Shown here: one piece after another, positions 4,680 to 31,593 of the stretch
Numbering within the stretch: the stretch's first letter is position 1
Layout of the letters: each line of letters begins with the position of its first letter
Source of the DNA: Alphaproteobacteria bacterium
GTDB lineage: Bacteria > Pseudomonadota > Alphaproteobacteria > GCA-2731375
Direction of reading: 5' to 3'
Length of the DNA stretch: 44,839 bases
Assembly (NCBI GenBank): GCA_021776235.1
Contig: JAJFGG010000011.1
Span: 102,248 to 147,086, forward strand
Program-made: the position numbers and the translations under genes
Notes under the pieces: model-generated
What the model was told of the DNA's origin: nothing
Databases searched by the model: none
The model's input: the letters and a program-made list of their open reading frames with translations, nothing else

Positions 4680-4993
4680 GTTATGGATTCGTACAGAAAC
4701 GGCGCCACAAGGCGCCCGACATTAGGCCTACAGGCCGAAGGCAATGGCCAGCTCATTCTTTCGTCCTCCCACCAGCGCCTTCGGCGGCGCCTAGTCTTGT
4801 TGCGCGGCAATATGCGATAGGTTGCCCCAGGACGCAAAGAATTTTTCGCGGCAATTCGTCCTACTTGCTGATTCGAGGAATTTCTTCTTATGCCGCAACA
4901 ACTTGCAGTGCGGCGAGAGCAACGGTCGCAATGGTCGCAACGGTTTGCGGCGCCAGGGTGCCATAATTGGTTGCAATGGGCTATATCTTGGCC
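4680..4993. other. Divergent intergenic region livG / uvrD, structured livG leader
   Basis: This 314-nt region holds no convincing gene. Three short GC-rich inverted repeats lie on the livG side: GGCGCC-acaa-GGCGCC at 4701-4716, GGCC-taca-GGCC at 4725-4736, and GCGCC-ttcggc-GGCGC at 4775-4790. On the uvrD side a 9-bp unit (CAACGGTCG) is repeated about three times, imperfectly, at 4920-4946. Promoters for both genes should lie here, but I cannot place -35/-10 boxes with confidence. Confidence 0.5.
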
Positions 4994-7300
4994 ATGTCCG
5001 ATCCATTCGATTTAGAACAGATTGCACCGGCGCCCGCATCTGTTGATACCCACGCCGAAGCGCCGCCGACGCTTGCCTCTGTGCACCAGCTGAACCCGGA
5101 ACAACAGGCCGCGGTAGAGGCGGTGGAGGGACCGGTCCTGGTCCTGGCCGGCGCCGGCACGGGCAAAACGCGGGTGCTGACCACCCGCCTGGCCCATATA
5201 TTGCACCAACGCCTGGCCTTCCCCAGTCAAGTCCTGGTCGTAACCTTTACCAACAAGGCGGCCCGCGAGATGGGACAGCGCATTGCCGCACTGGTCGGGC
5301 GCGCCGTGGAAGGCTTGTGGCTGGGCACGTTTCACGCCATCGGCGTGCGTCTGCTGCGCCGGCATGCCGAACTGGTTGGCCTGAAAAGCAACTTCACCAT
5401 ACTGGACACGGATGACCAGTTGCGCCTGTTAAAGCAGTTGATCGAGGCCGAACAGCTGGATCCCAAACGCTGGACCCCGCGTCAATTGGCGGCAACCATC
5501 GACCGCTGGAAAGACCGCGGCCTGACACCCGACAAAGTCCCCGCCGGCGAGGGCGAAAGTTTCGCCAACGGCCGGGGGGTCAACCTCTACAAGGCCTATC
5601 AGGAGCGGTTGAAAGTCCTCAATGCCTGCGATTTCGGCGATCTATTGCTCCATTGTCTGACCATCTTCGCCAACAATGGCGATGTCCTGGCCAGTTATCA
5701 AAAACAGTTCCGCTTTATCCTGGTCGATGAATATCAGGACACCAATGTCTCGCAATATCTGTTGCTGCGCCTGTTGGCCCAGGGGCACCGCAATATTTGC
5801 TGTGTCGGTGACGACGATCAGTCGATCTATTCCTGGCGCGGGGCGGAAGTGGGCAATATCCTGCGTTTCGAGCAGGATTTTCCCGGCGCCAAGGTTATCC
5901 GCCTGGAATGCAATTACCGCTCTACCCCCCACATATTGGGTGCAGCATCGGGCCTGATCGCGAAGAACGAGGGCCGCCTGGGCAAGACTCTATGGACGCA
6001 ATTGAACGAGGGGGAAAAAGTCCGGGTACGCGGCCTCTGGGACGGCGCCGAGGAAGCCCGCGCCGTTGGCGAACAGATCGAGGATCTGCAGCGCCGCGAG
6101 CAAAGCCTGAACGAGACGGCCATTCTGGTCCGTGCTTCGTTTCAGACCCGGGAGTTCGAAGAGCGGTTCCTGACCCTGGGCCTGCCTTATCGCCTGATCG
6201 GCGGCACCCGGTTCTATGAACGGGCTGAGATCCGCGATGCCGTGGCCTATCTGCGGGTGCTGGCGCAACCGGACGACGACCTGGCGTTTGAACGCATGAT
6301 CAATACGCCCAGGCGGGGCCTGGGCAACGCCACCTTGCAATTATTGCACCAGACGGCCCGCGGCATGGGCAGTTCCCTGACCCGGGCCGCGCGCATCATG
6401 ATCACCGGCGACGATCTGCAAACCCGGGCGCGCAACAGTTTAAGCAGGCTATTGGATGATCTGGACCGCTGGCGCGGCCTGATCGGCGCTATGCGCCCCG
6501 GTGAGCTGACCGAGATCATCCTGGACGAAAGCGGCTATACCGCCATGTGGCAGGCCAGCAAAGACCCGAAGGCACCCACCAAGCTGGAGAACCTGAAGGA
6601 ATTGATCGTCGCCTTGGAAGCCTTTGATGGATTGGGCGGATTTCTGGAGCATGTCAGCCTGGTCATGGATGTGGAAATGGCCCAGGCGGAGGATGCGGTC
6701 AATATTCTGACCCTGCACGGCGCCAAGGGTTTGGAATTCGACACGGTCTTTCTGCCCGGCTGGGAAGAAGGTTTGTTCCCGCACCAACGGGCATTGGATG
6801 AAAATGGCCTGGCGGCACTGGAAGAGGAACGCCGTCTGGGTTACGTCGGCCTGACCCGGGCCCGGCGGCGGGCCGTCGTCAGCTTCGCGGCGCAACGGCA
6901 GATGTACGGCCATTGGAATATGGCGCTACCCAGCCGTTTTATTGCGGAATTGCCGGCCGAGCATATCGAAACGGAGACCGAACCGGGGCTGTCTAGCGGT
7001 GGCGCGGAAACCATTGATGCGGCGGATGCGCCGGGCGCCTTCAGTTTCGGTGATAGTGGGTCGCCGGCCCGCATGCGGCGTGCCCCTGCCTCGGCGCCGG
7101 CGCCGAGATACCTGGACGGCCGGGCCGAACATGTGGTTACCACCGATCCCGGCGTCTCGGACTACGCCATCGGGGAACGGGTATTCCATCAGAAATTCGG
7201 CTATGGCCTGGTCGAGGATATCGAGGGCAATAAACTGTCTATCGCCTTTGACAAGGCTGGCGCGAAAAAGGTCATCGACAGTTTCGTGCAGCCGGCATGA
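4994..7300 (+). CDS. uvrD: ATP-dependent 3'-5' DNA helicase of the UvrD/PcrA/Rep family
   Basis: This is a superfamily 1A helicase that unwinds DNA in nucleotide-excision and mismatch repair. With ATG 4994 it has 768 residues. Motifs in order are Q-motif 'LNPEQQAAV' (about residue 33), Walker A 'AGAGTGKT' (52-59), motif II 'VDEYQDTN', motif III 'DDQSIYSWRGA', motif IV 'CNYRS', motif V 'LHGAKGLEFD' and motif VI 'YVGLTRAR'. The C-terminus carries the UvrD/PcrA 'V-F-H-Q-K-F-G-Y-G' Tudor-like domain that contacts RNA polymerase in relatives. ATG 4976 and TTG 4967 are possible earlier starts; I prefer 4994 because the protein then begins with a typical polar leader. Its stop overlaps prmA by 4 nt. 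Confidence 0.95.
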   Translation: MSDPFDLEQIAPAPASVDTHAEAPPTLASVHQLNPEQQAAVEAVEGPVLVLAGAGTGKTRVLTTRLAHILHQRLAFPSQVLVVTFTNKAAREMGQRIAALVGRAVEGLWLGTFHAIGVRLLRRHAELVGLKSNFTILDTDDQLRLLKQLIEAEQLDPKRWTPRQLAATIDRWKDRGLTPDKVPAGEGESFANGRGVNLYKAYQERLKVLNACDFGDLLLHCLTIFANNGDVLASYQKQFRFILVDEYQDTNVSQYLLLRLLAQGHRNICCVGDDDQSIYSWRGAEVGNILRFEQDFPGAKVIRLECNYRSTPHILGAASGLIAKNEGRLGKTLWTQLNEGEKVRVRGLWDGAEEARAVGEQIEDLQRREQSLNETAILVRASFQTREFEERFLTLGLPYRLIGGTRFYERAEIRDAVAYLRVLAQPDDDLAFERMINTPRRGLGNATLQLLHQTARGMGSSLTRAARIMITGDDLQTRARNSLSRLLDDLDRWRGLIGAMRPGELTEIILDESGYTAMWQASKDPKAPTKLENLKELIVALEAFDGLGGFLEHVSLVMDVEMAQAEDAVNILTLHGAKGLEFDTVFLPGWEEGLFPHQRALDENGLAALEEERRLGYVGLTRARRRAVVSFAAQRQMYGHWNMALPSRFIAELPAEHIETETEPGLSSGGAETIDAADAPGAFSFGDSGSPARMRRAPASAPAPRYLDGRAEHVVTTDPGVSDYAIGERVFHQKFGYGLVEDIEGNKLSIAFDKAGAKKVIDSFVQPA

Positions 7301-8193
7301 GCACCGGTACCATCTGGCGGGCGACGGTGGTGGTGCCTGCTTTGGCTGTGCCGGCATTCGAGGACGCCCTGGCTGAAGAGGCGCTGGCCAGTTCCTGCTT
7401 TGAACGCCCCGACAGCCGCCACTGGTCCGTGGAGGTCTTGTTCGAGGCGCCCGCGAACAGACTGGAATTGCAGTCGGAACTGCTGACGCGTCTGGCGCGG
7501 GCCGCGGCCGGCCTGGAATTGCCCGCGCCCCGATTAAGTCTGGCGCGCCTGCCGGACCGGGATTGGGTCTCCGCATCCCAGCGTGCCCTGCCCCCGGTTC
7601 GTGCCGGACGTTTTTTCATCCATGGCGCCCATGACAGGGGCCGGGCGCCATCGGGCGCCCTTGCCCTGGAAGTCGATGCTGGACGGGCCTTCGGCAATGG
7701 GCGGCACGAAACGACCAACGGCTGTTTGTTGACCCTGGACCATTTGGCCAAGACCCGGCGCTTCCATCGGCCGTTGGATCTGGGCTGTGGCGCCGGTGTC
7801 CTGGCCCTGGCAATGGCGCGGCTATGGCGGGTTCCCGTAGTGGCCTCGGACATCGACCCCTGGGCCGTTGCCGTGGCCAGGGCCAATTGCCGGAAGAATC
7901 ATCTGCACCCCTGGGTACGCCCGGTATTGGCCGACGGCTTCGCCGGTCAATGCCTTTCCACCAGCGCGCCCTATGATCTGATCATGGCGAATATTCTGGC
8001 CCGACCCCTGCAACGCCTGGCCCCGGCCATTGCCGCCCATCTGGCACCGGGCGGGCGGGTGGTTCTATCCGGCTTGCTGGCGAACCAGGAGGCCCAGGTC
8101 CGCGCCGCCTATCGCGCCCAGGGACTGTGCCTTGTCCACCGCAGACGTCTGGGCGGGTGGGTGACGCTAGAGTTGGCTGTACCGGCCCGGTGA
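7297..8193 (+). CDS. prmA: Ribosomal protein L11 methyltransferase
   Basis: This SAM-dependent enzyme methylates ribosomal protein L11. It has 298 residues, close to the usual 290-300. The N-terminal substrate-recognition half is divergent. The PrmA motif 'A-F-G-N-G-R-H-E-T-T' (about 131-140) has Asn where Thr is usual. SAM motif I 'DLGCGAGVLALA' is at about 161-172, the acidic 'ASDIDPWAV' follows, and the catalytic-loop motif 'ANILARPL' is at about 231-238. The start ATGA overlaps the helicase stop, so the two are co-transcribed. A hairpin follows at 8246-8278. Confidence 0.92.
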   Translation: MSTGTIWRATVVVPALAVPAFEDALAEEALASSCFERPDSRHWSVEVLFEAPANRLELQSELLTRLARAAAGLELPAPRLSLARLPDRDWVSASQRALPPVRAGRFFIHGAHDRGRAPSGALALEVDAGRAFGNGRHETTNGCLLTLDHLAKTRRFHRPLDLGCGAGVLALAMARLWRVPVVASDIDPWAVAVARANCRKNHLHPWVRPVLADGFAGQCLSTSAPYDLIMANILARPLQRLAPAIAAHLAPGGRVVLSGLLANQEAQVRAAYRAQGLCLVHRRRLGGWVTLELAVPAR

Positions 8194-8245
8194 TTTCCTC
8201 AACGGACCTGTGCCGGCGAGCGCCGATAAAGAGCCATTGCGGTCG

Positions 8246-8278
8246 CCTCCGAACGGCCCTGCTTCGGCCGCACGGAGG
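8246..8278. terminator. Imperfect GC-rich stem-loop between convergent genes
   Basis: CCTCCG-aa-CGGCC, a 7-nt loop, then GGCCG-ca-CGGAGG: an 11-bp stem with one internal aa/ca loop, in the gap between prmA (+) and the crotonase gene (-). No T-tract follows on either strand, so it could be a Rho-dependent end, a 3' stabiliser or a REP-like palindrome. A smaller hairpin, CGCCT-ataa-AGGCG (8307-8320), overlaps the crotonase stop codon. Confidence 0.4.
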
Positions 8279-8309
8279 TCGAGTATCGCAAATGCCCGGA
8301 GGCGAACGC

Positions 8310-9122
8310 CTATAAAGGCGAGTTGGGGTCGAAATTAGGCTGGCGTTTTTCCAAGTGCGAGGCCAGGCCCTCCCGGGCTTCCGGGCCCTTGAAACCGAGC
8401 ATTTCCAGAGCCAGCGAATTCTCGAACGTTGGCATTGCCATGCGGTACCAGTTGTTCAGGGCCAGTTTGGTCCAGCGGATGGCATTGGGCGCGCCGTTTG
8501 CCAGAGTCGCGGCCACCTCTTCCGATTTAGCCTGCAACTCGTCATCCTCGGTGCAGAGCGAGAAGAGGCCCATGCGTTCGGCCTCTTCGCCAAACACCGG
8601 CTCGTTCGTCAACAAATGGTATTTGGCCTTGGCCATGCCCGCCAGGATGACCCAGTTGATGCAGGCAACATCGCCGGCCGCGACACCAAGACGGACATGT
8701 CCATCCAGCACGCGGGCGGATTTGGCAATGATTGAGATATCGGCCAGCAGCGCGGCCACCAAGCCGGCACCGACGGCAACACCATTGACGGCGGAAATGA
8801 TGGGCTTGGAACAATTGATGATGTTGTAGACCAGGTCGCGGGCCTCTTTCCAGGCACCGACCGTGTCGTTCCAATTTTCGATGTTGTTCTTGATCATGCC
8901 GAAATCACCGCCGGAGGAGAATGCCTTGCCCTTGGCGGCCAAAATGACACAGCTGATATCAGGATCCTCGTCGATTTCCCGCCAAATATATGTCAACTGC
9001 CGATGGCCGGCGGAATCCAGCGAATTGTAGGTTTCCGGCTTGTTGAATGTAATGCGCAGGACGCGCTCGCTGGGACTGTCATATTCAAAGGCTGGAAATT
9101 TTTCGGCGTAACGTTTTAGCAT
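8310..9122 (-). CDS. Enoyl-CoA hydratase/isomerase (crotonase) family protein, atypical active site
   Basis: This 270-residue crotonase-fold protein acts on an acyl-CoA. The N-terminal 'LRITFNKPETYNSLD' and the oxyanion-hole segment 'GKAFSSGGD' (about residue 90) are intact, as is the second oxyanion strand 'AVNGVAVGAG'. However, the two glutamates of classical enoyl-CoA hydratases are absent. The position in 'GGGCEL' reads G-A-G-L-V-A-A, and the 'PEILLG' position reads G-H-V-R-L-G. It is therefore probably an isomerase, hydrolase or lyase rather than a hydratase. It stands alone and is divergent from the lyase cluster at 9377. Start ATG 9122 is preceded by AGGAGGAGT, a strong ribosome-binding site. 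Confidence 0.85.
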   Translation of the reverse strand: MLKRYAEKFPAFEYDSPSERVLRITFNKPETYNSLDSAGHRQLTYIWREIDEDPDISCVILAAKGKAFSSGGDFGMIKNNIENWNDTVGAWKEARDLVYNIINCSKPIISAVNGVAVGAGLVAALLADISIIAKSARVLDGHVRLGVAAGDVACINWVILAGMAKAKYHLLTNEPVFGEEAERMGLFSLCTEDDELQAKSEEVAATLANGAPNAIRWTKLALNNWYRMAMPTFENSLALEMLGFKGPEAREGLASHLEKRQPNFDPNSPL

Positions 9123-9224
9123 CGGATACTCCTCCTTGGGGGCCGTGTCGACGTCGTGCCCGCCAAGGGCACATTCGGACTATATGGGGTCATTCTCATA
9201 ACACCGATAAGCCCCGACAGATCG

Positions 9225-9241
9225 CCGGGGTCAAGTCCCGG
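9225..9241. repeat. Short GC-rich palindrome resembling a dispersed alphaproteobacterial repeat
   Basis: CCGGG-gtcaagt-CCCGG sits in the 254-nt divergent gap between the crotonase and the first lyase. From general knowledge, alphaproteobacterial genomes carry many copies of palindromes built around 'CCGGGnTCAAGnCCCGG', often mis-translated as 'PGLDPG'. Only one copy is evident in this window. A second stem, CCCCG/CGGGG at 9212-9230, overlaps it. Confidence 0.35.
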
Positions 9242-9376
9242 ATAGCGGTGCTGGCATGCGGCAATTCGTCCCCTGATAACCATGACGACGGCTACCACGC
9301 CGGCCGGTATCTGTTAAAGTAGCGAGAGTCAGAGGTATGGCTCGCAGCCATATGGACCACCCAGGGAGGAAGCGGC

Positions 9377-10258
9377 ATGCGGCGTTCTTCGCAATTGAGG
9401 GCTTTGTTGCAACGGGGCATCGTGCTCGCGCCGGGCGTTTACAACGCACTGTTCGCGAAGACGGTCGAGCATATGGGATTCGATGCGATCTACGTTACCG
9501 GATTTGGCACCGCGGCGCGGTATGGGTACCCAGACGTGGGACTGATAACCCAGACCGAGATGGTGCAAAATCTCCGGCACATCTGCCAGGCAACGACCAT
9601 TCCGGTGATCGCGGACGCCGATACCGGGTACGGAAATGTTATCAATGTCGCCCGCACGGTTCGCGAATACGAACGCGCCGGTGTCGCGGGTTTCCATCTC
9701 GAGGATCAGGTATTTCCCAAGAAATGCGGTTTCATGGAAGGCAAGGCCGTCATCCCCCTTGATGAGCATATGCAGAAAATCCGCGCCGCGCTGGATGCAC
9801 GCAATGATCCGGACACCGTCGTCATTGCCCGCACCGACGCGTTGGCGCCGAATGGGTGGGAAGACGCCCTGGCCCGGGCACGGGCATACCGCGAGGCCGG
9901 TGCGGATCTTGTTTTCGTCGACGGCATCCGCACCACCGAAGAACTCGAAATATACAGCCGCGAACTGGCTTTGCAGGGTATTCCCTGTCTTTACAATGGC
10001 GGGCTGGTGACCGCCGAGGCCGCGGGCCGGATGGGCTTCAAGATACAGATCCTGGCGGGGCTCGCCCTTGGTGCCGTGTACGAAAGTGCGACGGAGGCGA
10101 TGCAGGAATTGAACAGCAGCGGCACGACGCGGCAGACCGCCGCCCGTTACGGTCCGCCGGGCGAAGGAGAAAGCGTTAACGACCTCCTCGGCGTACCGGA
10201 GGTCTACGCGCTGGAGCAGCGCTACGACGCGTCCGGCGAAGAGGAGCTTGTACCATGA
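9377..10258 (+). CDS. Isocitrate lyase/PEP mutase family carbon-carbon lyase, first tandem copy (2,3-dimethylmalate lyase-like)
   Basis: This 293-residue TIM-barrel enzyme belongs to the isocitrate lyase/phosphoenolpyruvate mutase superfamily, whose short members cleave 2-methylisocitrate or 2,3-dimethylmalate or decarboxylate oxaloacetate. Visible are the metal and substrate loop 'IADADTGYGN' (Asp80 and Asp82), 'HLEDQ' (Glu109, Asp110), the flexible catalytic loop 'PKKCGF' with Cys117, and 'ARTDA'. The lyase motif KKCGH has Phe in place of His. A strong GGAGGA lies 7 nt before ATG 9377. Its stop overlaps the next gene by 4 nt, so the paralogs are co-translated. Context (aconitase-type subunits downstream) favours a substituted-malate substrate; exact specificity is inference. 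Confidence 0.88.
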   Translation: MRRSSQLRALLQRGIVLAPGVYNALFAKTVEHMGFDAIYVTGFGTAARYGYPDVGLITQTEMVQNLRHICQATTIPVIADADTGYGNVINVARTVREYERAGVAGFHLEDQVFPKKCGFMEGKAVIPLDEHMQKIRAALDARNDPDTVVIARTDALAPNGWEDALARARAYREAGADLVFVDGIRTTEELEIYSRELALQGIPCLYNGGLVTAEAAGRMGFKIQILAGLALGAVYESATEAMQELNSSGTTRQTAARYGPPGEGESVNDLLGVPEVYALEQRYDASGEEELVP

Positions 10259-11109
10259 GCAGCCCCGGCGCCCGCTTGCGGCATCTAATGACGAACGCCA
10301 TGGTGGTGGCGCCGTTCGTGTACGACGGTTTCACCGCCCTGATAGCCGAAGGGCAAGGCGCCCAGGCCGTCTACATGACGGGGCATGGAACCTCGGCCCA
10401 GATCGGATTGCCGGATGTCGGTCTTGCCAGTCTGGCGGAGATGGCCGGAAACCTGGGCTATATTGCCAATGCGGTCGCGATCCCGGTTATCGCCGATGCC
10501 GATACAGGCTATGGCAACGCCATCAATGCTCAGCGCACTGTGCGGGAATACGAAACCGCCGGCGCCGCCGCCATGCACCTCGAAGATCAGGTCTTCCCAA
10601 AGCGCTGCGGTTTCTTTGAAGGCAAGAAATGCGTGCCGATGGCCGAGCACGTGCAGAAGATCCGGGCCGCCCTGGATGCCCGCGCTGATCCGGATCTGGT
10701 GATCATTGCCCGGACCGACGCCGTGGCGCCGAACGGCTGGGACGATGCGATCCGGCGGGCCGAAGCGTATCGCCAGGCCGGCGCGGACATGGTCTTCGTC
10801 GATGGCATCAAGACCGCCGACGACCTGGACATCTATACCCGCCGGTTGGTCGAACAGGGGATCCCCTGCCTCTACAACGGACAGCTCTCACCCACTGGGG
10901 AGATCGCGGCGCGCGGCTTCAAGATTATGATAACCGGCGGTGGCCACGCGCTTTCGTACGCCGCCGTGCGCCAGGCGCTGCTTGCGCTGAAGCAGGACGG
11001 CGGCGGCGAGGGCCGGGATCTTGAGCGCTTCAATGCCATGACGGATTTGTTGGGTTTGCCCGAAATCTACGAATTGGAGCGTCGCTACGCGCCAATCTCG
11101 AAAACGTGA
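10255..11109 (+). CDS. Isocitrate lyase/PEP mutase family carbon-carbon lyase, second tandem copy
   Basis: This 284-residue paralog of the preceding gene is very similar from 'VIADADTGYGN' to the 'IPCLYNG' strand. It keeps Asp81 and Asp83 of the metal loop, Glu110/Asp111, and Cys118 in 'PKRCGF', again with Phe replacing the usual His. The N-terminal 70 residues and the C-terminus diverge more than the core, including 'T-G-H-G-T-S-A-Q' versus 'T-G-F-G-T-A-A-R' near the substrate pocket. The two copies could be a hetero-oligomer or handle different stereoisomers. ATGA overlaps the first copy; a 54-nt gap with a purine-rich site precedes the next gene. Confidence 0.88.
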   Translation: MSSPGARLRHLMTNAMVVAPFVYDGFTALIAEGQGAQAVYMTGHGTSAQIGLPDVGLASLAEMAGNLGYIANAVAIPVIADADTGYGNAINAQRTVREYETAGAAAMHLEDQVFPKRCGFFEGKKCVPMAEHVQKIRAALDARADPDLVIIARTDAVAPNGWDDAIRRAEAYRQAGADMVFVDGIKTADDLDIYTRRLVEQGIPCLYNGQLSPTGEIAARGFKIMITGGGHALSYAAVRQALLALKQDGGGEGRDLERFNAMTDLLGLPEIYELERRYAPISKT

Positions 11110-11163
11110 GATGAATTTTCCACAATCGCCCGCAAACTGGGCGAACGACAGAAAGAGATCATC

Positions 11164-12411
11164 ATGGGCATGACAATAGCAGAGAAGATTCTGGCCGCGC
11201 ATGCCGGCGCCGACACTGTGGTACCGGGGCAATATCTGTGGTGCAAGGTTGACGCGACCAGCGGTCACAGGCTGGCGGATCTGGAAGCTCTGGGGGTGGA
11301 CCGGGTCTGGGACCCGGACCGGGTGTTCATGGTGGACGATCATCAGGCCCCGCCGCCGACTATTGCCGCGGCCAACCAAGTGAAGGAATTGCGGCGCCTG
11401 ATCAAGAAATTCGGGATCACGAATTATTTTGAATACGGGCGAGGCGGCATTCTGCATCAGGTTTTCGCCGAACACGGCATGTACGCGCCAGGTGATCTGG
11501 TGGCGCAATGCGACTCCCATTCGACCGCGGGCGGGGTATTCAACGCTTGCGTAACCAATGCCAATCTCGACGCGGTGCACGTTCTTGCCTTCGGTGAGCT
11601 TTGGTTCCGGGTTCCCAATTCGGTGCGCGTGATCTTGAACGGCACACTTCCCGGATGGTGCGTCGGCAAGGACGTCATCCTCAAGGTCGCGGCCGAACTC
11701 GGGACCGACTATGGCCTGTACAAGTCCGTGGAGTATGTCGGCCCGGTGGCGAGCCAGATGAGCCTTGCGCAACGTTGGACGGTCTCCAACATGGGCGTGG
11801 AAGTCGGTGCCAAGTTCGCAGTCTTCGAGGCCGATGAAAAGACCGACGCCTTCCTCGCCGGGCGATTGGACCGCCCGTACGAACATGTGACGGCCGACCC
11901 GGATGCATCCTACGAGGCCGAGTACGAGTTCGACTTGAGCGACCTGACGCCGATGGTGGCCCGTCCCGGTGATCCCGGAAACGGGGTTCCCGTCGAATCG
12001 GTGATGTCCGAGCGGGTCCGGGTCGATCAGGCGTTCCTCGGGTCATGCACAAATGCGCGTTTGGAGGACCTTGAAGTGGCGGCGCGAATTCTGAAAGGAC
12101 GGCAGGTCCACCCGGATGTCCGCATGCTGGTCAGCCCATCCTCGCAAGAGGTATTCGGGGCGGCGCTTAAGGCCGGATATCTGGAGACTCTGGTCGACGC
12201 GGGCGCGCTCGTCGAACACTCGACCTGCGGGCCCTGTTACGGCGGACATCTCGGTGTGCTTGGGGACGGCGAAACCTGTATTTCAAGCAGCAATCGCAAT
12301 TTCCAAGGCCGGATGGGCAGCCCACTCGCCAACGTCTGGCTGTCGAGCCCAGCCACCGTCGCGGCGTCCGCGGTCGCGGGCGTGATCGTGGACCCCCGTG
12401 AATACCTCTAA
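11164..12411 (+). CDS. Aconitase-family hydro-lyase, large subunit (LeuC / dimethylmaleate hydratase large-subunit type)
   Basis: This 415-residue protein is the size of the short LeuC/homoaconitase/DmdA subunits (about 420), not of bacterial LeuC (about 465). The [4Fe-4S] ligands are Cys295 ('GSCTN') and Cys355/Cys358 ('TCGPCYG'). Also present are 'Q-C-D-S-H-S' (117, usually G-x-D-S-H-T), and 'SSSNRNFQGRMG' (374-385). It would interconvert an unsaturated dicarboxylate and a hydroxy-acid together with the small subunit next door. ATG 11170 (M-T-I-A-E-K-I-L) is an equally likely start. Being next to two dimethylmalate-lyase-like enzymes suggests dimethylmaleate or a similar acid rather than isopropylmalate. 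Confidence 0.88.
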   Translation: MGMTIAEKILAAHAGADTVVPGQYLWCKVDATSGHRLADLEALGVDRVWDPDRVFMVDDHQAPPPTIAAANQVKELRRLIKKFGITNYFEYGRGGILHQVFAEHGMYAPGDLVAQCDSHSTAGGVFNACVTNANLDAVHVLAFGELWFRVPNSVRVILNGTLPGWCVGKDVILKVAAELGTDYGLYKSVEYVGPVASQMSLAQRWTVSNMGVEVGAKFAVFEADEKTDAFLAGRLDRPYEHVTADPDASYEAEYEFDLSDLTPMVARPGDPGNGVPVESVMSERVRVDQAFLGSCTNARLEDLEVAARILKGRQVHPDVRMLVSPSSQEVFGAALKAGYLETLVDAGALVEHSTCGPCYGGHLGVLGDGETCISSSNRNFQGRMGSPLANVWLSSPATVAASAVAGVIVDPREYL

Positions 12412-12426
12412 AAGGGGACAGAAAAA

Positions 12427-12957
12427 ATGGAAACCGTATGTACCGGCCGTGTTTGGAAATTCGGCGACCGCATTAGCACGGACCTGATGGTGCCGGGGTC
12501 CCGTGTGCTGGCGAATCCAGGCCTCGGCGCGGAGGAAGCCGCCACGTTCTGCATGGAGGCCAATCGTCCTGGCTGGGCCGTGTCCGAAGTGCAGCAGGGC
12601 GATATCCTGGTCGCAGGTATCAATTTCGGTTGCGGCTCCAGCCGCAACGGATCCATGCCATTGAAGACGCTCGGTATCGCCGTGGTGTTGGCCGAGTCCG
12701 TATCACGCATTCACCTGCGCAATGCGGTGAACACAGGGCTGCCGACATTGGTCGCGCCAGGCATTACCGGTTTTGTCGAGGAAGGCCAGAGCCTCAAGGT
12801 GAACATCATAACCGGCGAGGTCAGGAATCTTGAAACCGGGGCCACCATGTCGGCGGAAGCCTGGGGCGAAGGCACGCCGCCCTATGAGATCTTGATGGCG
12901 GGTGGGCTGGATGCCTACATGAAGATAAAATTGAAGGAACGGGGCCTCGTTTCTTAG
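12427..12957 (+). CDS. Aconitase-family hydro-lyase, small subunit (LeuD / dimethylmaleate hydratase small-subunit type)
   Basis: This 176-residue swivel-domain subunit provides substrate-binding residues to the active site of the large subunit. It begins with 'G-R-V-W-K-F-G-D-R-I-S-T-D' and has the family loop 'GCGSSRNGSMP' (68-78), whose Ser-Ser-Arg binds a substrate carboxylate in relatives. The residue after Arg is Asn, where LeuD and homoaconitases usually have Glu. AAAGGGGA lies about 8 nt before ATG 12427, and only 15 nt separate it from the large subunit. It ends 12 nt from the convergent flavin oxidoreductase gene. Confidence 0.88.
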   Translation: METVCTGRVWKFGDRISTDLMVPGSRVLANPGLGAEEAATFCMEANRPGWAVSEVQQGDILVAGINFGCGSSRNGSMPLKTLGIAVVLAESVSRIHLRNAVNTGLPTLVAPGITGFVEEGQSLKVNIITGEVRNLETGATMSAEAWGEGTPPYEILMAGGLDAYMKIKLKERGLVS

Positions 12958-12969: not shown

Positions 12970-13779
12970 CTAAAGCAGCGCCCGAATAGCTGAAAGATTG
13001 GCTTCGTCAGGCTTGTTCACGACGAGAATCGCGTCGTCGAAACCGATGTCGGCCAGACCGCGCAAACGCACAGCGGCTTCTTCCGGGCCGCACCGAAGGT
13101 CCAGCTTGTCGGTATCTGCGAGTGATGCGCTCGGCGCGTCAAGATCCACGTGAATGTTTGTCACAATGGCCCGTTTGCCGCCCAGATCCTTGAATCTCGC
13201 GGCCCCCTCCCGCAGCGTGGCTATATCGGTATACATCGCCGAGGCAATCCAGCCGTCATATTGCTGCGCCGCGACCGGGATCCAGCGGCTGCCGGCCCAA
13301 CTGCCAATCAAAATAGGGGGCCCACCAAGGGCCTGCGGCCAGGGTTTGAGATCAACACCCTGAACCGTTTCACCGCGCCACAATTTTTGCATGAGAGGCA
13401 GAGCCTCCCGCAGATGACGAAAACGCCCTGCAAAATCTGCGCCCACGGCCTTGAAATCCGCTTCCGTCGATCCGGCGCCAACGCCCAGGCGCAGCCGGCC
13501 CTGGGACAACAGATGTGCGGTCAATACCCTGTGCGCCAGCTCGACCGGGTTCCGCAACGGGACTTGAAGAATGCAGGTTCCTATCTCGATCCGACTGGTG
13601 ACGGCAGCGGCGGCGCAGGCGGCGCCCAGCGGGTCGGCTATGCTCTCGGCCCGGCCAATTGCATCGAAGAACCAAAGCCCGGTGAAGCCAGTCTTCTCCA
13701 CCATGCCCATGGCGGCGCAATAGGTCGCGCCGTCAAGCGCGGCATTTCCCATAAACGGCAGGCTAATCCCAAGATTCAT
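12970..13779 (-). CDS. LLM class (luciferase-like) flavin-dependent oxidoreductase
   Basis: This 269-residue protein has the bacterial-luciferase-like TIM barrel that uses FMN or F420 to oxygenate or reduce a small substrate. Visible are the N-terminal 'L-G-I-S-L-P-F', the 'G-L-W-F-F-D' strand with Asp at about residue 39, 'I-G-T-C-I-L-Q-V-P-L-R-N-P' (about 67-79), and the family hallmark 'S-Q-G-R-L-R-L-G-V-G-A-G' (about 91-102). It is about 50-80 residues shorter than classical luciferase subunits. It follows the Dpp-type permease gene dppC on the same strand, 92 nt away and after a hairpin, so it may be the last gene of that operon. The substrate is unknown. Confidence 0.85.
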   Translation of the reverse strand: MNLGISLPFMGNAALDGATYCAAMGMVEKTGFTGLWFFDAIGRAESIADPLGAACAAAAVTSRIEIGTCILQVPLRNPVELAHRVLTAHLLSQGRLRLGVGAGSTEADFKAVGADFAGRFRHLREALPLMQKLWRGETVQGVDLKPWPQALGGPPILIGSWAGSRWIPVAAQQYDGWIASAMYTDIATLREGAARFKDLGGKRAIVTNIHVDLDAPSASLADTDKLDLRCGPEEAAVRLRGLADIGFDDAILVVNKPDEANLSAIRALL

Positions 13780-13871: not shown

Positions 13872-14768
13872 TCAGCGATCCCGGAGTTTCGGGTCCAGTA
13901 CATCGCGCATGGCATCACCAAACAGGTTAAAGCCGAACACCGCCAGCGAAATCGCAATGCCTGGGAAGATGACCGCCCAGGGTGCGCTTTCGGCATATTC
14001 TTCCGCACCACTTTTCAGCATCAAGCCCCAGGCCGGTGTCGGCTCCTGCACGCCAAGGCCAAGATAGCTGAGCGAGGCTTCCGCCAGGATGGCCTGGCCC
14101 AGAAAGGTCGTCAGCATGATCAGATAAGGTGCCATGATATTAGGCGATATGTGACGCAGGACAATGCGGACATGGCCAAAACCCATGGCCCGCGCGGCAT
14201 CCACATAAGGAATTTCGCGGATCGCCAGGGCGGACGAGCGCACCACCCGGGCACAGTTCGGTATGAGCGGAATAGTGATGGCGACGATCACCGGTCCGAC
14301 GCCGCGGCCCAGAATAATCACGATCGCCAAGGCCAGAATGATCGAGGGAAAAGCGATCAGAACGTCAACCACGCGCTGTACGATATTATCCACCCAGCCG
14401 CCGAAATAGGCAGAGGTGACACCAATCAACAGGCCGATGGTGGAGCCAAGAATGGCGGCGGTGAAACCAACCAGCATGGCGGTGCGGGCGCCATGGACGA
14501 TACGGGAATAAATATCCCGGCCAAACTCGTCGGTACCGAAAATATGGTCCAAACTGGGCGCCTGCAGCATGGCGCCAAAGTCATTGACTTCCGGATCGTA
14601 CATGTCGATTTGCTCGGCAAATACGGCGGCGAAAATCATCAAGATAACAATCAACCCGCCAGCCGCGCCCAGAGGCTGGCGTCGGATCAAATCTATAGCA
14701 ACGGCACCCCAGCCGCGATCCTGGAGTGGTTCGTCCTGAATTCCAATGTATGTTTCATTGACCGCCAT
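13872..14768 (-). CDS. Dipeptide/oligopeptide/nickel-type ABC transporter permease, DppC-like
   Basis: This 298-residue inner-membrane permease has a cytoplasmic N-terminus of about 30 residues and about six transmembrane helices. It carries the DppC/OppC signature 'FGTDEFGRDIYSRIVHGAR' (about 87-105) and the ATPase-contacting loop 'YVDAARAMGFGHVRIVLRHI' (about 188-207). Gene order and a 24-nt gap place it directly after dppB. The subgroup can carry dipeptides, oligopeptides, nickel, opines or glycosides; specificity is not readable from this subunit. Confidence 0.94.
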   Translation of the reverse strand: MAVNETYIGIQDEPLQDRGWGAVAIDLIRRQPLGAAGGLIVILMIFAAVFAEQIDMYDPEVNDFGAMLQAPSLDHIFGTDEFGRDIYSRIVHGARTAMLVGFTAAILGSTIGLLIGVTSAYFGGWVDNIVQRVVDVLIAFPSIILALAIVIILGRGVGPVIVAITIPLIPNCARVVRSSALAIREIPYVDAARAMGFGHVRIVLRHISPNIMAPYLIMLTTFLGQAILAEASLSYLGLGVQEPTPAWGLMLKSGAEEYAESAPWAVIFPGIAISLAVFGFNLFGDAMRDVLDPKLRDR

Positions 14769-14792
14769 GGCCTGACCCCAATTTACCTGCGA

Positions 14793-15764
14793 TTAGCTAT
14801 AATGAATTCGTGGATCGACCCAGGCATAGAGCAGATCCACCAGTAAATTAACCACAACGAAGACCGAAACAACCATCATCACCAGCGCCTGGGTCAGCGT
14901 GAAGTCATGGTCCAACACCGCATCGACAAATAGTTTACCCAGACCGTTGAGATTGAAAACCTGCTCGGTCACCACCAGACCGCCGATCAGGAATGCGAAC
15001 TCGATGCCGACAAGGGTAATGACCGGCAGCAGCGCGTTTTTCAAGGCGTGCTGATTGACAATCACCTTTTCGAACAGCCCCTTGGCCCGGGCCGTGCGGA
15101 CATAATCCTCGCGCAGAACCTCCAACATGGCCGAACGGGTCATGCGCACCACCACCGCTGCATAGCGATAACCCACCGCGACCGCCGGCCATATGGTCTG
15201 GGATAGATTAGCCCATGGATCGACCCATATGGGCGTAAATTGAATGGGCATCATCCACGGTTCACCAAACAGGTGCTGGCTGACGATTAAAAGGCCCAAA
15301 ATTATCATGATGCCGAGCCAGAATGACGGCGTGGCAATGCCGGCGATGGAAAACAGCCGGATGCAGTAATCCACCCAGGTATTCTGCCTGATGGCGGAAA
15401 TTACGCCGAACGGCAATGCGATGATCACGGCCGTCAAGGTTGCCATGATGGCGATTTGCAAGGTCAGTTGAAAACGGACGGAGATCTCTTCCGTGACCGG
15501 ACGTCCGGTCCACATGGAATCGCCGAAATTCAAAGTCACCATACCAATCGCAAAATCATAAAATTGTTTGGCCATCGATTGGTTCAGGCCGAGGCCCTCG
15601 CGGCAGATGTCAATCTGTTCCTTATCCACCATCAAACCGGTGCCGCCCAGGCGGATCTCGCAGACATCGCCGGGGATCATGCGCATCAGCATGAAGACCA
15701 GAAGACCGGCCCCGATCAGCGTCGGGATCATCAGCAAAATTCGCTTTATGGTGTATTTGTACAT
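14793..15764 (-). CDS. Dipeptide/oligopeptide/nickel-type ABC transporter permease, DppB-like
   Basis: This 323-residue permease is the partner of DppC. It starts with the typical 'Y-T-I-K-R-I-L-L-M-I-P-T-L-I-G' first helix. It has the periplasmic loop with Cys36 and Cys50, the 'N-F-G-D-S-M-W-T-G-R-P-V' segment near residue 75, and the EAA loop 'YVRTARAKGLFEKVIVNQHALKN' shape (about 220-242). The separation from the binding-protein gene includes a strong hairpin (15828-15857). Confidence 0.94.
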   Translation of the reverse strand: MYKYTIKRILLMIPTLIGAGLLVFMLMRMIPGDVCEIRLGGTGLMVDKEQIDICREGLGLNQSMAKQFYDFAIGMVTLNFGDSMWTGRPVTEEISVRFQLTLQIAIMATLTAVIIALPFGVISAIRQNTWVDYCIRLFSIAGIATPSFWLGIMIILGLLIVSQHLFGEPWMMPIQFTPIWVDPWANLSQTIWPAVAVGYRYAAVVVRMTRSAMLEVLREDYVRTARAKGLFEKVIVNQHALKNALLPVITLVGIEFAFLIGGLVVTEQVFNLNGLGKLFVDAVLDHDFTLTQALVMMVVSVFVVVNLLVDLLYAWVDPRIHYS

Positions 15765-15827
15765 GGGTCAGCCATCCATGCGGCGTCAACCGAAGCCGAA
15801 AAGCAATAAATAATCAAAAACGCCGCC

Positions 15828-15857
15828 CATGGCGGCCGCATCTATGCGGCCGCCATG
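15828..15857 (-). terminator. Perfect 14-bp inverted repeat with T-tract downstream of the binding-protein gene
   Basis: CATGGCGGCCGCAT, two bases, then ATGCGGCCGCCATG: a perfect 14-bp stem, 12 nt after the binding-protein stop. In the minus-strand transcript it is followed by GGGCGGCG and five U. That is the form of a partial intrinsic terminator or 3' stabiliser between a highly needed binding protein and its permeases. Confidence 0.6.
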
Positions 15858-15869
15858 TCGGCAATAAGC

Positions 15870-17471
15870 TTACTGGTCCAACCAGACCTGATCCAAATGC
15901 TGGTTCAGATAGTGACTGGGCGCAATCTTCCAACCCTTCACGTAGGAACGGTGGGGGTTGATCTTGTACCACCACAAGGTGGGGATAATGTGGGCTTCCT
16001 CACCATACAAACGCGTTTCAAAGTCACGCATAATTTTGCGCTGCTCGGCCGGATCGCCAGATCTGGACATGGCCGCATGCATTTTTTCCATCGGCTCGTC
16101 CGTATACTGGGCATAGTTGTTGGAGGCACTGCCCAGATATTTCGAGACATCGACGATCGGGTTCACAATCGACTGGCAATTGGCATCGATGGCAACCTGA
16201 TAGTCCTTCTTTTTCCGCAGGGAATCGACCCAGGGGCCAGTCGGCACGGCGTTCTGCGTCACCTTCACGCCAATTTGCCGCCACTGGTCAATCAGCCAGA
16301 CACCCAGGATACGATACGGTTGGTCAACCGCACGATTCAGAAGGGTAAAGCTCAGGTTCGAATGACCGGCTTCCTTTAACAGGCGTCTGGCTTCATCCCG
16401 GCTCTTTTTGATATCGGTCCAGAAACCCGGAATTTTGGTCAGTTCGTCCTTGTTCGCGGCCAGGGGATGGCTTGGGAACACCACACCGCCGACGGTCTTG
16501 ACGATGGCGATCTTCGACAGCGCCTTGGAACCGCTCCAACGGTCCACGGCGAGACTTAGTGCCCGGCGCACCCGCTTGTCATCAAACGGCTTGGCCTTGT
16601 GATTTGGCGTTACCAGCAAGGAACAGTTCCAATCACCTTCCTGCACGGTGATCTTGTCGCCCAGGGCCTTGACCAGGTCGTCCCGCGCTTTCGGGGGAAA
16701 GCCACGGAATTCGATGGCGGCCCGGTTGCCGCGGATGGCCTGCAAACGCACAGCCATCTTCGGTGCGGAGATGGCCTTGTAGCCATCCAGATAGGGTTTG
16801 CCCTTGTGGTGATAACCGTCATAACGCTTGCCCGAGACAAAGGCGCCCGGCTGATGTTCCACGAATGAAAAGGCACCCGTGCCGTTTACGTTCTTTTGAT
16901 GCCATTTATAGCCGTGGGTATCCAGATCCTTCTTGGCATAGATGAAATTGAAGGGCATCGCCACCGAGGGAATAAAGGTCGGCGAAGGGTATTTCAGCTT
17001 CATCACCAGGGTATATTTATCCGGTGTCGTGATGGTCTCGACCATGGAAAAGAACTTTTTCCGCAAGCTCAATATGCCTTCTGGCGGGAACACAAGCTTG
17101 TCATAGGTCGCTTTCACATCGGCCGCGGTCAGCGGCGTGCCGTCATGAAACTTGATATCCTTGCGGATCGCAAACGTATGGGTCTTGCCATCGTCAGAAC
17201 TGGAAAACGACGAACAGACATCACATACGAAATCCGTGGTCGAACTTGGGTTTTCCGGGTTGACCCGGATCAGAGTGCTATAAAACGGCCGGATCGGATG
17301 GATCATCCCGAAGGTGCCTTCCATGTGGCCGTCCATGGAGGGAATCTTAGAGCCCACCACGAAATTCAAAGTGCCGCCGCGCTTCGGCGTCTCCGCCGTC
17401 GCGACGTTGGCCGCCAACAACAGCGCCGCCGCTGTCGTCCCGACCAACATTTTCAGGGTCTTAGGTTTCAT
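15870..17471 (-). CDS. ABC transporter periplasmic substrate-binding protein, family 5 (DppA/OppA-like)
   Basis: This is an extracytoplasmic binding protein (SBP_bac_5) of about 533 residues for the Dpp-type importer. The start at 17471 is chosen because GGGAG lies about 9 nt upstream and the protein then begins with a clean Sec signal peptide: Lys-rich start, hydrophobic core, cleavage near A-T-A-E. An ATG at 17507 would add 12 residues with no good ribosome-binding site. The mature part shows 'RGGTLNFV' and the family signature 'FHDGTPLTAADVKATYDKL' (about 114-133). It is encoded between the ATPases and the permeases, with a terminator-like hairpin after it. The ligand is unknown. Confidence 0.93.
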   Translation of the reverse strand: MKPKTLKMLVGTTAAALLLAANVATAETPKRGGTLNFVVGSKIPSMDGHMEGTFGMIHPIRPFYSTLIRVNPENPSSTTDFVCDVCSSFSSSDDGKTHTFAIRKDIKFHDGTPLTAADVKATYDKLVFPPEGILSLRKKFFSMVETITTPDKYTLVMKLKYPSPTFIPSVAMPFNFIYAKKDLDTHGYKWHQKNVNGTGAFSFVEHQPGAFVSGKRYDGYHHKGKPYLDGYKAISAPKMAVRLQAIRGNRAAIEFRGFPPKARDDLVKALGDKITVQEGDWNCSLLVTPNHKAKPFDDKRVRRALSLAVDRWSGSKALSKIAIVKTVGGVVFPSHPLAANKDELTKIPGFWTDIKKSRDEARRLLKEAGHSNLSFTLLNRAVDQPYRILGVWLIDQWRQIGVKVTQNAVPTGPWVDSLRKKKDYQVAIDANCQSIVNPIVDVSKYLGSASNNYAQYTDEPMEKMHAAMSRSGDPAEQRKIMRDFETRLYGEEAHIIPTLWWYKINPHRSYVKGWKIAPSHYLNQHLDQVWLDQ

Positions 17472-17576
17472 TTTGAGGTCTCCCTTAAGTCTGTTTTTCG
17501 CCGTCATTTATTGTTTCATCAGTACGGCTATGGTCAAAGGTTAACACGTATCCGAGCCTTAAAAAACGCAAATTTC

Positions 17577-17593
17577 TGCCAGTATTACTGCCA
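17577..17593. promoter_or_regulatory. Short inverted repeat upstream of the binding-protein gene
   Basis: TGCCAGTA-t-TACTGCCA (one mismatch) lies in the 132-nt gap between the ATPase gene and the binding-protein gene. On the minus strand a run of six T follows 11 nt later. It could be a weak terminator for the ATPase message or an operator for an internal promoter; I cannot decide which. Confidence 0.25.
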
Positions 17594-17603
17594 CTTACAC
17601 CCC

Positions 17604-18632
17604 CTATTCTCTCGGCACCACGGGACAGGCCAGCATGTGGCCAGGGGTGAATTCCTGAAGTTCGGGGATATCGCGCTTGCAGGTTTCAATCGCCTGCGGG
17701 CAGCGTGGATGGAATACACAGCCGGACGGCGGGTTGATCGGAGACGGCACTTCGCCCTCCAAAATCTGATGCGAACGCGCTGCTTCAATCTCCGGGTCCG
17801 GCACCGGCACGGCGCTCAACAAGGCCCTGGTATAGGGATGTTTCGGGTTATCAAATAATTCATCGCAATCCGCCAACTCGACGATTTTGCCCAAATACAT
17901 CACGGCAACCCGATGGCAGAGGTGGCGCACTACGGAAAGATCATGGGCGATAAACAGATAGCTGAAATTGAACTGCTTTTGCAGATCCTCCAAAAGATTT
18001 ATGATCTGGGCCTGAATTGACACATCCAGCGCCGAGACCGCCTCGTCGCAAACGATGAATTTCGGATTGACCGACAAGGCCCGGGCAATACCCACCCGCT
18101 GCCGTTGGCCGCCGCTCATTTCATGGGGATAGCGGTCGGCAAACCGCGGGTTAAGACCGCAAATCCGCAGCAGTTCCGAAACCCGCTCACGGCGTTCCGT
18201 CGCATCCTTGATTATACCATGCACCCGCATCGCCTCGGAAATGATCGAGCCGATTTTCATGCGTGGATTGAGCGAGGAAAACGGATCCTGGAATATGACC
18301 TGCACATCCTGGCGCAGATCACTCATTTCGCTGGTTTTCATCCCGGCAATGTCGACACCGGAGAATATCACCTTGCCCGCGGTGGGTTGTTCCAGCCGCA
18401 GGATGCAACGGCCGACGGTGGTCTTGCCACAACCGGATTCGCCAACCAGACCCAGCGTCTCGCCTGGCGCTATGGTGAAACTGACACCATCCACCGCTTT
18501 GACCAGCCCGACGGTGTGCTTCAGGAACAATCCGTCGGTGACGGGGAAGTGCATTTTCAAGCCTTCCACCCGCAACAGCGGTTCCGCCTCTGCGAGGGAG
18601 TCTTCCTCCACCATGTCTTCCGCGGCACTCAC
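17604..18632 (-). CDS. Dipeptide/oligopeptide ABC transporter ATP-binding protein, DppF-like
   Basis: This 342-residue ATPase has Walker A 'GESGCGKTT' (about 63-71), the signature '[15 protein letters not shown]' (about 166-180), Walker B '[12 protein letters not shown]', and the C-terminal oligopeptide/dipeptide extension '[11 protein letters not shown]' with Cys residues that can hold an Fe-S cluster in some relatives. An acidic 20-residue leader precedes the first strand. Its ATG overlaps the stop of the upstream ATPase gene by 4 nt. Confidence 0.94.
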
Positions 18633-19651
18633 GCGGCTGTTCCATTTTGTTGCACAAGGGTTTCGTAATGCCAGCAGGCACTCTTATGGTCGCCGGTAAC
18701 CGTTTCCAACTCCGGAATTTCATGGCCGCAACGTTCCGTGGCAAACCGGCAGCGCGGACGAAAGGCACAGCCGTCGTCAAGCCTGGCCAAATCCGGCGGC
18801 TGACCTTCGATCGGGATGAGTGCGGTTCCCCGCGGTTGATCCAACCTGGGCACTGACGCCAGCAGCCCAAGGGTGTAAGGGTGGCTGGGATTGTGGTAGA
18901 TTTCCTTGGCGGTCCCCGTTTCGACGATCTTGCCTGCATACATGACGTTGACCCTGTCGGCGTAGCGGGCCACGACACCCAGATTGTGGGTGATTATGAG
19001 CTGCGCCACGCCCAGCCGTTTGGACAGATCCCGCATCAATTCCAGAATTTGCGCCTGAATAGTGACGTCCAGCGCCGTGGTCGGCTCGTCCGCAATAATC
19101 AGCTTTGGCTCGCAGCAGAGCGCCATGGCGATCATCACCCGCTGGCGCATGCCGCCGCTTAAATGGTGCGGAAACTGCGTGAGTCGGCGGGCCGGATCGG
19201 AGATCCCGACCTGACGCAGCAGATCCAGGGCCCGCTCTTTCGCCTTTTGTTCGTTCATATCCGTATGGCGCAACAACGTCTCGGTCAATTGCCGGCCGAC
19301 AGAGAGCACCGGATTAAGCGAGGTCATCGGCTCCTGAAAGACCATGGCGATGTCGCGGCCGCGCACGTCACGGATCTCAGCGTTGCTCATTTTCAAGAGA
19401 TCGCGGCCCTCAAACAGCGCCTGACCCTTTGCAATGCGCCCGGGCGGTTCCGGGATAAGGCGCAGGATAGACATGGCGCCGACGGATTTGCCACAACCGG
19501 ATTCACCGACAATGGCCACGGTTTCACCCAGCCCAACCGTATATGATATACCGCCAACGGCGCGCACCACACCGTCGCTGGTATCAAATTCCGTCGTCAG
19601 ATCGGAAATTTCAAGCAGATTTTCCAGCGACCATCCCCCCGGAAGCCCCAA
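18629..19651 (-). CDS. Dipeptide/oligopeptide ABC transporter ATP-binding protein, DppD-like
   Basis: This is the first gene of the importer operon, about 340 residues. It has Walker A 'GESGCGKS' (about 44-51), the signature '[15 protein letters not shown]', Walker B '[12 protein letters not shown]', and the C-terminal '[11 protein letters not shown]' extension. The start is uncertain. No ATG or GTG lies in frame before the first strand 'LLEISDL'. TTG 19651 has no ribosome-binding site, while a CTG eight codons later (19627) has GGGGGGA 6 nt upstream. It is divergent from the racemase-superfamily gene at 19940. Confidence 0.92.
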
Positions 19652-19939
19652 ACAAATACGCAGGGCTTGTTACCCCATATTTCGATCCAAAGTCTTTTGC
19701 CAGACTTCGTTGCCGCTCCGAATTTTTGGACCTTAGGAGCATTCTCGCTCCAGTGTCAAGAATATCATCTTTGCCTTCACATTAGTTGCTCTCTACAGGT
19801 GTTTTGCCGCAAGCTGTCGTCCTTCAATCGCGGCGCGATAGGAATTTATCCTCTTCATACCACCGCGCGGCGGCGCAAATCGAGGCTGCAGATCTGACGC
19901 CGCATGGACAGCCGTGCGGCCAATAATAAGGAACACGTG

Positions 19940-26424: not shown

Positions 26425-26433
26425 CGCGACCTC

Positions 26434-31573: not shown

Positions 31574-31593
31574 TTATCCGTCGTTGCTGTGAT

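Follow-up and report, generated by a model that had tools for sequence, protein, structure and literature searches.

A conserved hydratase and twin-lyase gene cassette in an alphaproteobacterium: a candidate system for the breakdown of substituted maleates

In the nicotinate fermentation of Eubacterium barkeri, dimethylmaleate hydratase (DmdAB) acts ahead of 2,3-dimethylmalate lyase. Solved lyases of this isocitrate lyase (ICL)/phosphoenolpyruvate (PEP) mutase family include the fungal enzymes 3fa3, a 2,3-dimethylmalate lyase (DML), and 3lye, an oxaloacetate acetylhydrolase (OAH). Here we describe a locus in a 44,839-nucleotide stretch of an alphaproteobacterial assembly (the window; GCA_021776235.1, contig JAJFGG010000011.1) that resembles the E. 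barkeri system in encoding a two-subunit aconitase-type hydratase beside an ICL/PEP mutase-family lyase, with the same presumed order of reactions. On balance, we favor reading its four genes as a catabolic cassette that comprises a substituted-maleate hydratase and two malate-cleaving lyases.

The order, conservation, family membership, catalytic residues and phylogeny of these genes can be observed directly. The initial annotation placed two tandem lyases ahead of 415-aa and 176-aa hydro-lyase subunits on the plus strand, and open reading frames lie at exactly these positions, each with a Pfam family match above cut-off. LY1 (9377..10258, 293 aa) is a putative carbon-carbon lyase with the active-site variant KKCGF and overlaps by 4 bp with its tandem paralogue LY2 (10255..11109, 284 aa), which has the same type of active site. 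The large hydratase subunit, LARGE (11164..12411, 415 aa), follows after 54 bp and the small subunit, SMALL (12427..12957, 176 aa), after a further 15 bp, so that the spacing is operon-like throughout. LY1 and LY2 score 172.5 and 159.1 bits against Pfam PEP_mutase (cut-off 31.5), LARGE scores 295.8 against Aconitase (28.7) and SMALL 45.2 against Aconitase_C (22.8). Both lyases combine the PEP_mutase domain with a DxDTGxG metal site and a catalytic cysteine in KKCG, as is expected of carbon-carbon lyases of the family. The two-subunit aconitase-type hydro-lyase signature is likewise present: LARGE keeps the three iron-sulphur cysteines in motifs (GSCTN and STCGPC) that align with the solved IPMI/HACN chains 4nqy and 4kp2, and SMALL, a LeuD/DmdB-type small subunit by Pfam and NCBIfam, contains the SSR motif (GCGSSR).

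The cassette is real and conserved. A LARGE pattern scan of a species-genome collection gave at least 573 confirmed stretches, of which the best 80 were analyzed, and close relatives may thus be more numerous than the 16 of these 80 in which LARGE reaches at least 55% identity. Ten of these 16 loci (L047-L050 and L052-L057) contain the complete order LY1-LY2-LARGE-SMALL. They come from eight alphaproteobacterial metagenome-assembled genomes (MAGs), of which several carry marine titles, together with a Chloroflexi MAG (L056) and a Rokubacteria MAG (L057). The contig of an eleventh locus (L060) ends inside LARGE and that of L051 just upstream of LARGE. Gene order is thus kept across three phyla, and in the Chloroflexi and Rokubacteria cassettes LARGE is 84% and LY2 69-70% identical to the window proteins. 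Within the window's order, LARGE is present in 9/15 genomes and LY1 (at least 83% identity) in 7/15, all seven among the nine LARGE-bearing genomes; several genomes are common to this count and to that of the named MAGs. One genome of the order (G390) has LARGE with no LY1 seen, on a contig that starts 128 bases before LARGE. Beyond the order, a close LARGE (E 1e-120) occurs in 1/95 genomes of the L057 phylum and 3/400 of the L058 phylum, and among 391 genomes of the class of L062, a further locus of the window clade, only L062 itself encodes a LARGE above 50% identity (at most four candidates per genome were scored in the samples of 400 and 391). A plasmid search with LARGE covered 177 records, none of which reached 60% identity. 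The distribution is patchy and yet identity across phyla is high, which suggests transfer; the cassette has probably moved between lineages.

LY1 and LY2 are 56% identical and, with L061, form a single clade (12 LY1 rows; 13 rows for LY2 with L061; Shimodaira-Hasegawa-like approximate likelihood ratio test [SH-aLRT] 97) that is sister, with moderate support (86), to the solved DML/OAH group. The tree omitted duplicates, matches shorter than 185 aa and the short class loci L018-L046. Residues D80 and D82 (in DxDTGYG), K115, C117, G118 and R152 (in ARTD) are kept in all 24 LY1/LY2 rows and L061. The two proteins share their fold, aspartate metal site and catalytic cysteine with 3fa3, 3lye and 1zlp, their nearest characterized relatives, and both depart from these in the same three ways. 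The solved enzymes have KKCGH or KRCGH, then FVE, FLE or LLE, then NMVE, NSVE or NMIE followed by a longer loop, whereas LY1 and LY2 have KKCGF or KRCGF, FVDG (FMDG in L057) and NG. Phe119 replaces the histidine of the full KKCGH motif in 25/25 rows of the clade (12 LY1, 12 LY2 and L061), compared with 46 His and 6 Phe in 62 other rows. Asp182 is similarly invariant (25/25; 50 Glu and 4 Asp elsewhere), and in all 25 rows the loop after Asn207, counted by eye in the alignment, lacks about six residues relative to DML and the alphaproteobacterial lyases. Trp161, Tyr193 and Gly208 of the clade are found in 0/62 other rows. Judged from this alignment, LY1 and LY2 share a remodeled active site in which the catalytic residues checked are intact. 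At 16 sites, LY1 and LY2 each have an invariant residue of their own, a pattern that would fit two specialized enzymes better than a simple dosage duplication.

Other members of the family were seen in passing. An ICL/PEP mutase-family paralogue at L058:8930-9940 has KKSG in place of KKCG, and hence no catalytic cysteine, and is clustered with hydratase-subunit genes, two for large and three for small subunits. The window's own genome has 12 PEP_mutase-family places; between L264 (contig C164) and L268 (contig C58), one such place adjoins a second SBP_bac_5/Dpp-like transporter and an FAD dehydrogenase and another adjoins an isochorismatase-family gene.

The hydratase is also distinct. In a maximum-likelihood tree of 52 rows, the window LARGE clade (12 rows, support 100/100) is cut off by a 100/97 branch from LeuC, HacA and a group of hydratases encoded in alphaproteobacterial HyuAB operons, the last of which form a clade of their own (8 rows, 100/100). 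The LeuC clade (9 rows, 98/97) contains five rows flanked by leuA/leuB, and the solved LeuC and HacA chains group with a LeuA-flanked archaeal row (L096; 95/92), apart from the window clade. In the small-subunit tree, 17 rows, made up of the window group and its sister, branch apart from all others (SH-aLRT 94). A phylogeny of both subunits was among the checks named in the initial annotation, and in both trees the window group stands apart from LeuCD and homoaconitase. (A separate 150-row tree left out duplicate loci, own-genome loci L001-L009 and L017, same-order loci L047, L050, L051, L053 and L060, and matches below 360 aa.) The window subunits share the two-subunit aconitase architecture and iron-sulphur motifs of solved LeuCD and homoaconitase chains (4nqy, 4kp2; 3vba, 2pkp) and differ in SMALL, which has GSSRN in place of GSSRE and an NRPGW motif. 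Broad NCBIfam subfamily models are passed (NF001614, hacA_fam and IPMI_arch by LARGE; LEUD_arch by SMALL), whereas the four proteins miss all of their listed equivalog models (LEU2, leuC, HacA, leud, prpB and others). By their branching and model scores, LARGE and SMALL are neither LeuCD nor homoaconitase.

From these data we infer the activity, metal use, direction, substrate class and lyase division of labor as follows. LARGE and SMALL, as an iron-sulphur hydro-lyase, would add water to a maleate with substituents on C2, C3 or both. The corresponding malate would then be cleaved between C2 and C3 by LY1 and LY2, as Mg-dependent, cysteine-assisted enzymes of the ICL type, yielding a carboxylic acid together with pyruvate or a homologous 2-oxoacid. 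LY1 and LY2 probably serve two regio- or stereoisomers of the hydrated acid, or alternatively may form a hetero-oligomer. This chemistry would equal that of DmdAB with Dml; the separate protein branch and reshaped pocket suggest, however, that dimethylmaleate is probably not what the enzymes act on in nature. All four proteins belong to known superfamilies; what is new, as far as these comparisons reach, is a conserved twin-lyase cassette with an active-site type unseen in the solved relatives compared here. Databases annotate such genes as 3-isopropylmalate dehydratase and as isocitrate lyase/PEP mutase family, names that hide what may be a widespread degradation of substituted four-carbon diacids. 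The window provides a clean, apparently transferable example, and the departures shared by its lyases offer specific residues and substrates to test.

Relatives of the hydratase adjoin genes for enzymes able to make or consume such acids. The L170 locus encodes SBP_bac_5, MmgE, a TcuA-type dehydrogenase (523.5 bits; cut-off 369), two ETF subunits, LARGE, SMALL and an IDH-family enzyme, and the Chloroflexi cassette (L056) is followed by a second hydratase with an IDH-family gene as in L170 (72%). SBP_bac_5, permeases and MmgE/PrpD directly precede LY1 in the Rokubacteria MAG (L057); in a same-order relative (L055), MmgE/PrpD shares the strand of LY1 and precedes it by about 5 kb, and L062 has MmgE/PrpD on the opposite strand. 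These dehydrogenases and MmgE genes suggest that the substrates in other lineages could be substituted succinates or alkylcitrates. The recurrence of MmgE/PrpD in the window clade, together with the methylcitrate-cycle logic of an aconitase paired with an ICL-type lyase, gives some substance to an alternative that we consider unlikely, though better placed than the others: a route in which LARGE and SMALL re-hydrate an alkyl-aconitate and LY1 and LY2 cleave an alkyl-isocitrate to succinate and a 2-oxoacid. Both lyases nevertheless fall under the prpB cut-off (232.6 and 216.1 vs 354.4 bits), and MmgE has no match in the available DNA of the window, L047-L050, L052-L054 or L056. Nor was a citrate-synthase gene noticed by the cassette, where no systematic search for one was made.

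Somewhat further from the evidence is the possibility, improbable in our view, that the cassette enzymes, although of a separate branch, have come to act as a genuine dimethylmaleate hydratase and dimethylmalate lyase. The position of the LY clade beside the solved DML/OAH group and the 40% identity of LY1 to 3fa3 over 280 aligned residues are consistent with this function. For comparison with DmdAB and Dml, a proxy locus (L183, minus strand; genome G1073, from the class of an Oscillibacter MAG) was used in place of E. barkeri DmdA. It has the order LARGE, SMALL, lyase, DUF1847, isomerase, and is probably a dimethylmaleate module, since its isomerase closely matches the PDB chain of E. barkeri 3-methylitaconate isomerase (Mii; 3g7k, E 3.7e-193). 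(The L183 cluster, at 3912-12527, also holds MmgE and a MatC/CitMHS-type transporter.) L183 LARGE nests within the LeuC clade (99/95), on the far side of the 100/97 split from the window clade, and its lyase has ordinary KRCGH and NMVE motifs and belongs to another clade than LY1 and LY2. Identities to the window proteins are 42% for LARGE, 38% for SMALL and 41% for the lyase against LY1. Further differences are the second lyase of the window, the KKCGF variant and the lack of a PrpF/Mii gene near the cassette; the only PrpF-family match in its genome is on contig C103, beside a gene named by eye as TcuA-like. Measured against this proxy, the window genes do not look orthologous to E. barkeri-type DmdAB and Dml, and with a remodeled lyase pocket they would at most work like them. 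The initial annotation had seen in these genes the enzyme pairing of DmdAB with dimethylmalate lyase, an identity that the L183 comparison does not support, and had more broadly proposed a catabolic module for a substituted maleate or malate, an idea supported by the branching and model scores of LARGE, by the presence of a separate LeuC-LeuD-LeuB-like cluster in the genome and by the kinship of LY1 and LY2 with DML and OAH.

Bacteria are known to degrade simple cyclic imides, and two loci of the window clade contain genes that could open such rings. L059 encodes on one strand a hydantoinase-like protein, an isochorismatase-family protein, LARGE and SMALL; L062 encodes, also on one strand, a lyase, LARGE, SMALL, a hydantoinase-like protein, an isochorismatase-family protein and a pyridoxal phosphate-dependent enzyme. 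Both hydantoinase-like proteins score under curated cut-offs. The L062 isochorismatase-family protein matches N-carbamoylsarcosine amidohydrolase best in the PDB and 3ot4/3uao second, 3uao being a maleamate amidohydrolase. A wider survey took in up to 20 kb around each of 50 more distant LARGE matches in an alphaproteobacterial sample, several of them on short contigs. In 35/50 loci, the related hydratase has a lyase within 1.5 kb on the same strand, so the pairing is less isolated among alphaproteobacteria than had been supposed. LARGE, SMALL, a lyase, HyuB, HyuA and an isochorismatase occur together on one strand within 8 kb in 12/50 loci (L201, L203, L206, L209, L213, L220, L222, L244, L245, L249, L252 and L253) and in 0/19 control stretches at arbitrary positions, 15 from test-locus genomes and 4 from the window's own genome. 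L201 supplied query proteins, and L263, a guessed region, was not counted. Single matches in the controls were few (HyuB 2; HyuA, isochorismatase, hydantoinase-like, LARGE and enoyl-CoA hydratase 1 each), with HyuA and HyuB together in one control and an isochorismatase-like and hydantoinase-like match, at 28%, in one from the own genome.

Pfam confirms the HyuA, HyuB and isochorismatase families in L201. A FAD-dehydrogenase-like match lies near 8 of the 12 operons, that of L203 being flavocytochrome-c-like and below cut-off, and a GntR regulator is present in L201, L203 and L275. The last of these, in Paraburkholderia largidicola (PPGUF2_77250 to 77140), has the full annotated operon set with the GntR regulator and a branched-chain-type ABC transporter. 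In Cupriavidus metallidurans CH34, only LARGE and SMALL were found, with the lyase, HyuAB and isochorismatase not seen within 17 kb, which limits the operon reading. The literature searched yielded no paper describing this operon. Its hydratase and lyase adjoin much as in the window and differ in belonging to other clades (100/100 and 99, respectively), in a single lyase of the KRCGH type and in the accompanying HyuAB and amidase-type genes; the operons thus inform the chemistry rather than the identity of the window cassette.

The presence of cyclic-amide hydrolases and isochorismatase-type amidases beside related hydratases suggests that substituted maleimides can feed in and makes them a testable source. 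A bolder proposal, to which we give little credence, is that the cassette is the lower half of an unrecognized pathway for dialkylmaleimides (methyl ethyl maleimide, for example), which remain as pyrrole-ring fragments when chlorophyll and haem are broken down. An imidase would open the ring and an isochorismatase-type amidase would release ammonia; LARGE and SMALL would then hydrate ethyl-methyl-maleate to two regioisomers, one of which LY1 and the other LY2 would cleave, to pyruvate and butyrate or to 2-oxobutyrate and propionate. If true, this would explain the two lyases, as well as the remodeling should the shorter loop enlarge the pocket, and would give environmental bacteria a part in what becomes of substituted maleimides, whether derived from pigments or not. 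In the window itself, no gene is directly indicative of dialkylmaleimides. Passages of one paper cite maleimides from senescent leaves and lake sediments and report none detected in its own leaves (PMC7318184). In the literature searched, mostly titles and abstract openings, no paper on a bacterial dialkylmaleimide route stood out, and no papers on SAR202 and refractory matter were found.

Structural comparison bears on whether LY1 and LY2 could instead be oxaloacetate hydrolases or decarboxylases, or phosphonate enzymes, so that the cassette would only resemble a pathway. The AlphaFold model of LY1 (pLDDT 89.2) matches OAH 3m0j (Z 35.6, root-mean-square deviation 2.7, 280 residues aligned), DML 3fa3 (35.0, 3.0, 280), PEP phosphomutase 5unc (34.9, 2.2, 282) and the petal death protein 1zlp (34.8, 2.3, 275) about equally. 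The tie means that the model picks no substrate, in a superfamily that is promiscuous. The catalytic cysteine and KKCG motif are nevertheless kept as in carbon-carbon lyases and the pairing with the hydratase is steady, and none of the genes next to the cassette stood out as a phosphonate gene, although such genes were not systematically sought; we regard this alternative as very unlikely. Least likely of all is that a biosynthetic LeuCD, citramalate isomerase or homoaconitase happens to adjoin unrelated lyases, since the subfamily scores that would allow it (hacA_fam 455.2 vs cut-off 385.7; IPMI_arch 437 vs 410.15) are set against missed equivalogs (LEU2 419.3 vs 610.65; leuC 194.9 vs 560.25; HacA_Meth 345.7 vs 550), the position of LARGE outside the leuA/leuB-flanked clade and the solved LeuC and HacA chains, the conserved gene order with two lyases and a separate LeuC-LeuD-LeuB-like cluster on contig C106 (a second LeuCD-like pair is on C49). 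The initial annotation, which had kept this alternative open, was right that leuA and leuB are missing from the window, where neither query has a match.

Several observations count against a substituted-maleate hydratase coupled to malate-cleaving lyases. No lyase is found on the short contig of L059 or in the 20 kb around L170, and the IDH-family gene of L170 implies that a lyase is not obligatory downstream of the hydratase. In genome G391 of the order (84% complete; L174:8938-12538), LARGE and SMALL occur without LY1 and LY2, and a gene for a thiamine pyrophosphate-dependent enzyme takes the lyase position, possibly as a replacement of the downstream step or as an assembly effect. The exchange of His for Phe and Glu for Asp and the shorter loop mean that the activity of LY1 and LY2 may differ from that of any known lyase. 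Finally, the HyuAB, hydantoinase-like, isochorismatase-like, TcuA-like and MmgE queries used have no match in the window, which leaves relatives as the sole source of the imide and dehydrogenase links.

A Dpp/Opp-type ABC transporter encoded past the cassette on the minus strand (13872..19651) is a possible uptake system, as suggested by neighbors in other lineages. It consists of permeases (13872-14768 and 14793-15764), SBP_bac_5 (15870-17507) and ATPases (17604-18632 and 18629-19651), and is convergent with the cassette; the two are not co-transcribed here. By Pfam, the hydratase has SBP_bac_5 genes nearby in the window, L056, L057, L058 and L170; in the alphaproteobacterial survey this holds for 4/50 loci and 0/19 controls. 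None was found in the available flanks of same-order loci L047-L049 and L052-L055, which in L047, L052 and L053 span no more than 0.1 to 1 kb to one side, and the transporter is for this reason only a possible part of the cassette.

Upstream, a 254-bp gap (9123..9376) that presumably holds the cassette promoter separates LY1 from a divergent enoyl-CoA hydratase gene (8310-9122, minus strand). A promoter scan found no sigma-70-like site in this gap and two sites overall, against 1.2 expected. The enoyl-CoA hydratase gene and a luciferase-like oxidoreductase gene just past SMALL (12970-13779) were rejected as parts of the cassette, their matches in 273 loci and the window reaching 36% identity at most (overlapping window copies aside, here and below). 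A distant arylmalonate-decarboxylase/maleate-isomerase relative (19904-20671) matched no other locus in the same set and was also set aside. The next gene (20753-21466) encodes a DUF1847 protein 42% identical to that between the isomerase and lyase of L183. It occurs in 5/9 genomes of the order with LARGE and 2/6 without, lies off the LARGE contig in the other four genomes with both, and was rejected as incidental because it does not track LARGE in the order. Further along the minus strand (25267-34100), three acyl-CoA dehydrogenases, an enoyl-CoA hydratase, a biotin carboxylase, a carboxyltransferase and a short-chain dehydrogenase/reductase are encoded consecutively, a row that resembles a Liu/Atu-like cluster for leucine/isovalerate or acyclic-terpene degradation.

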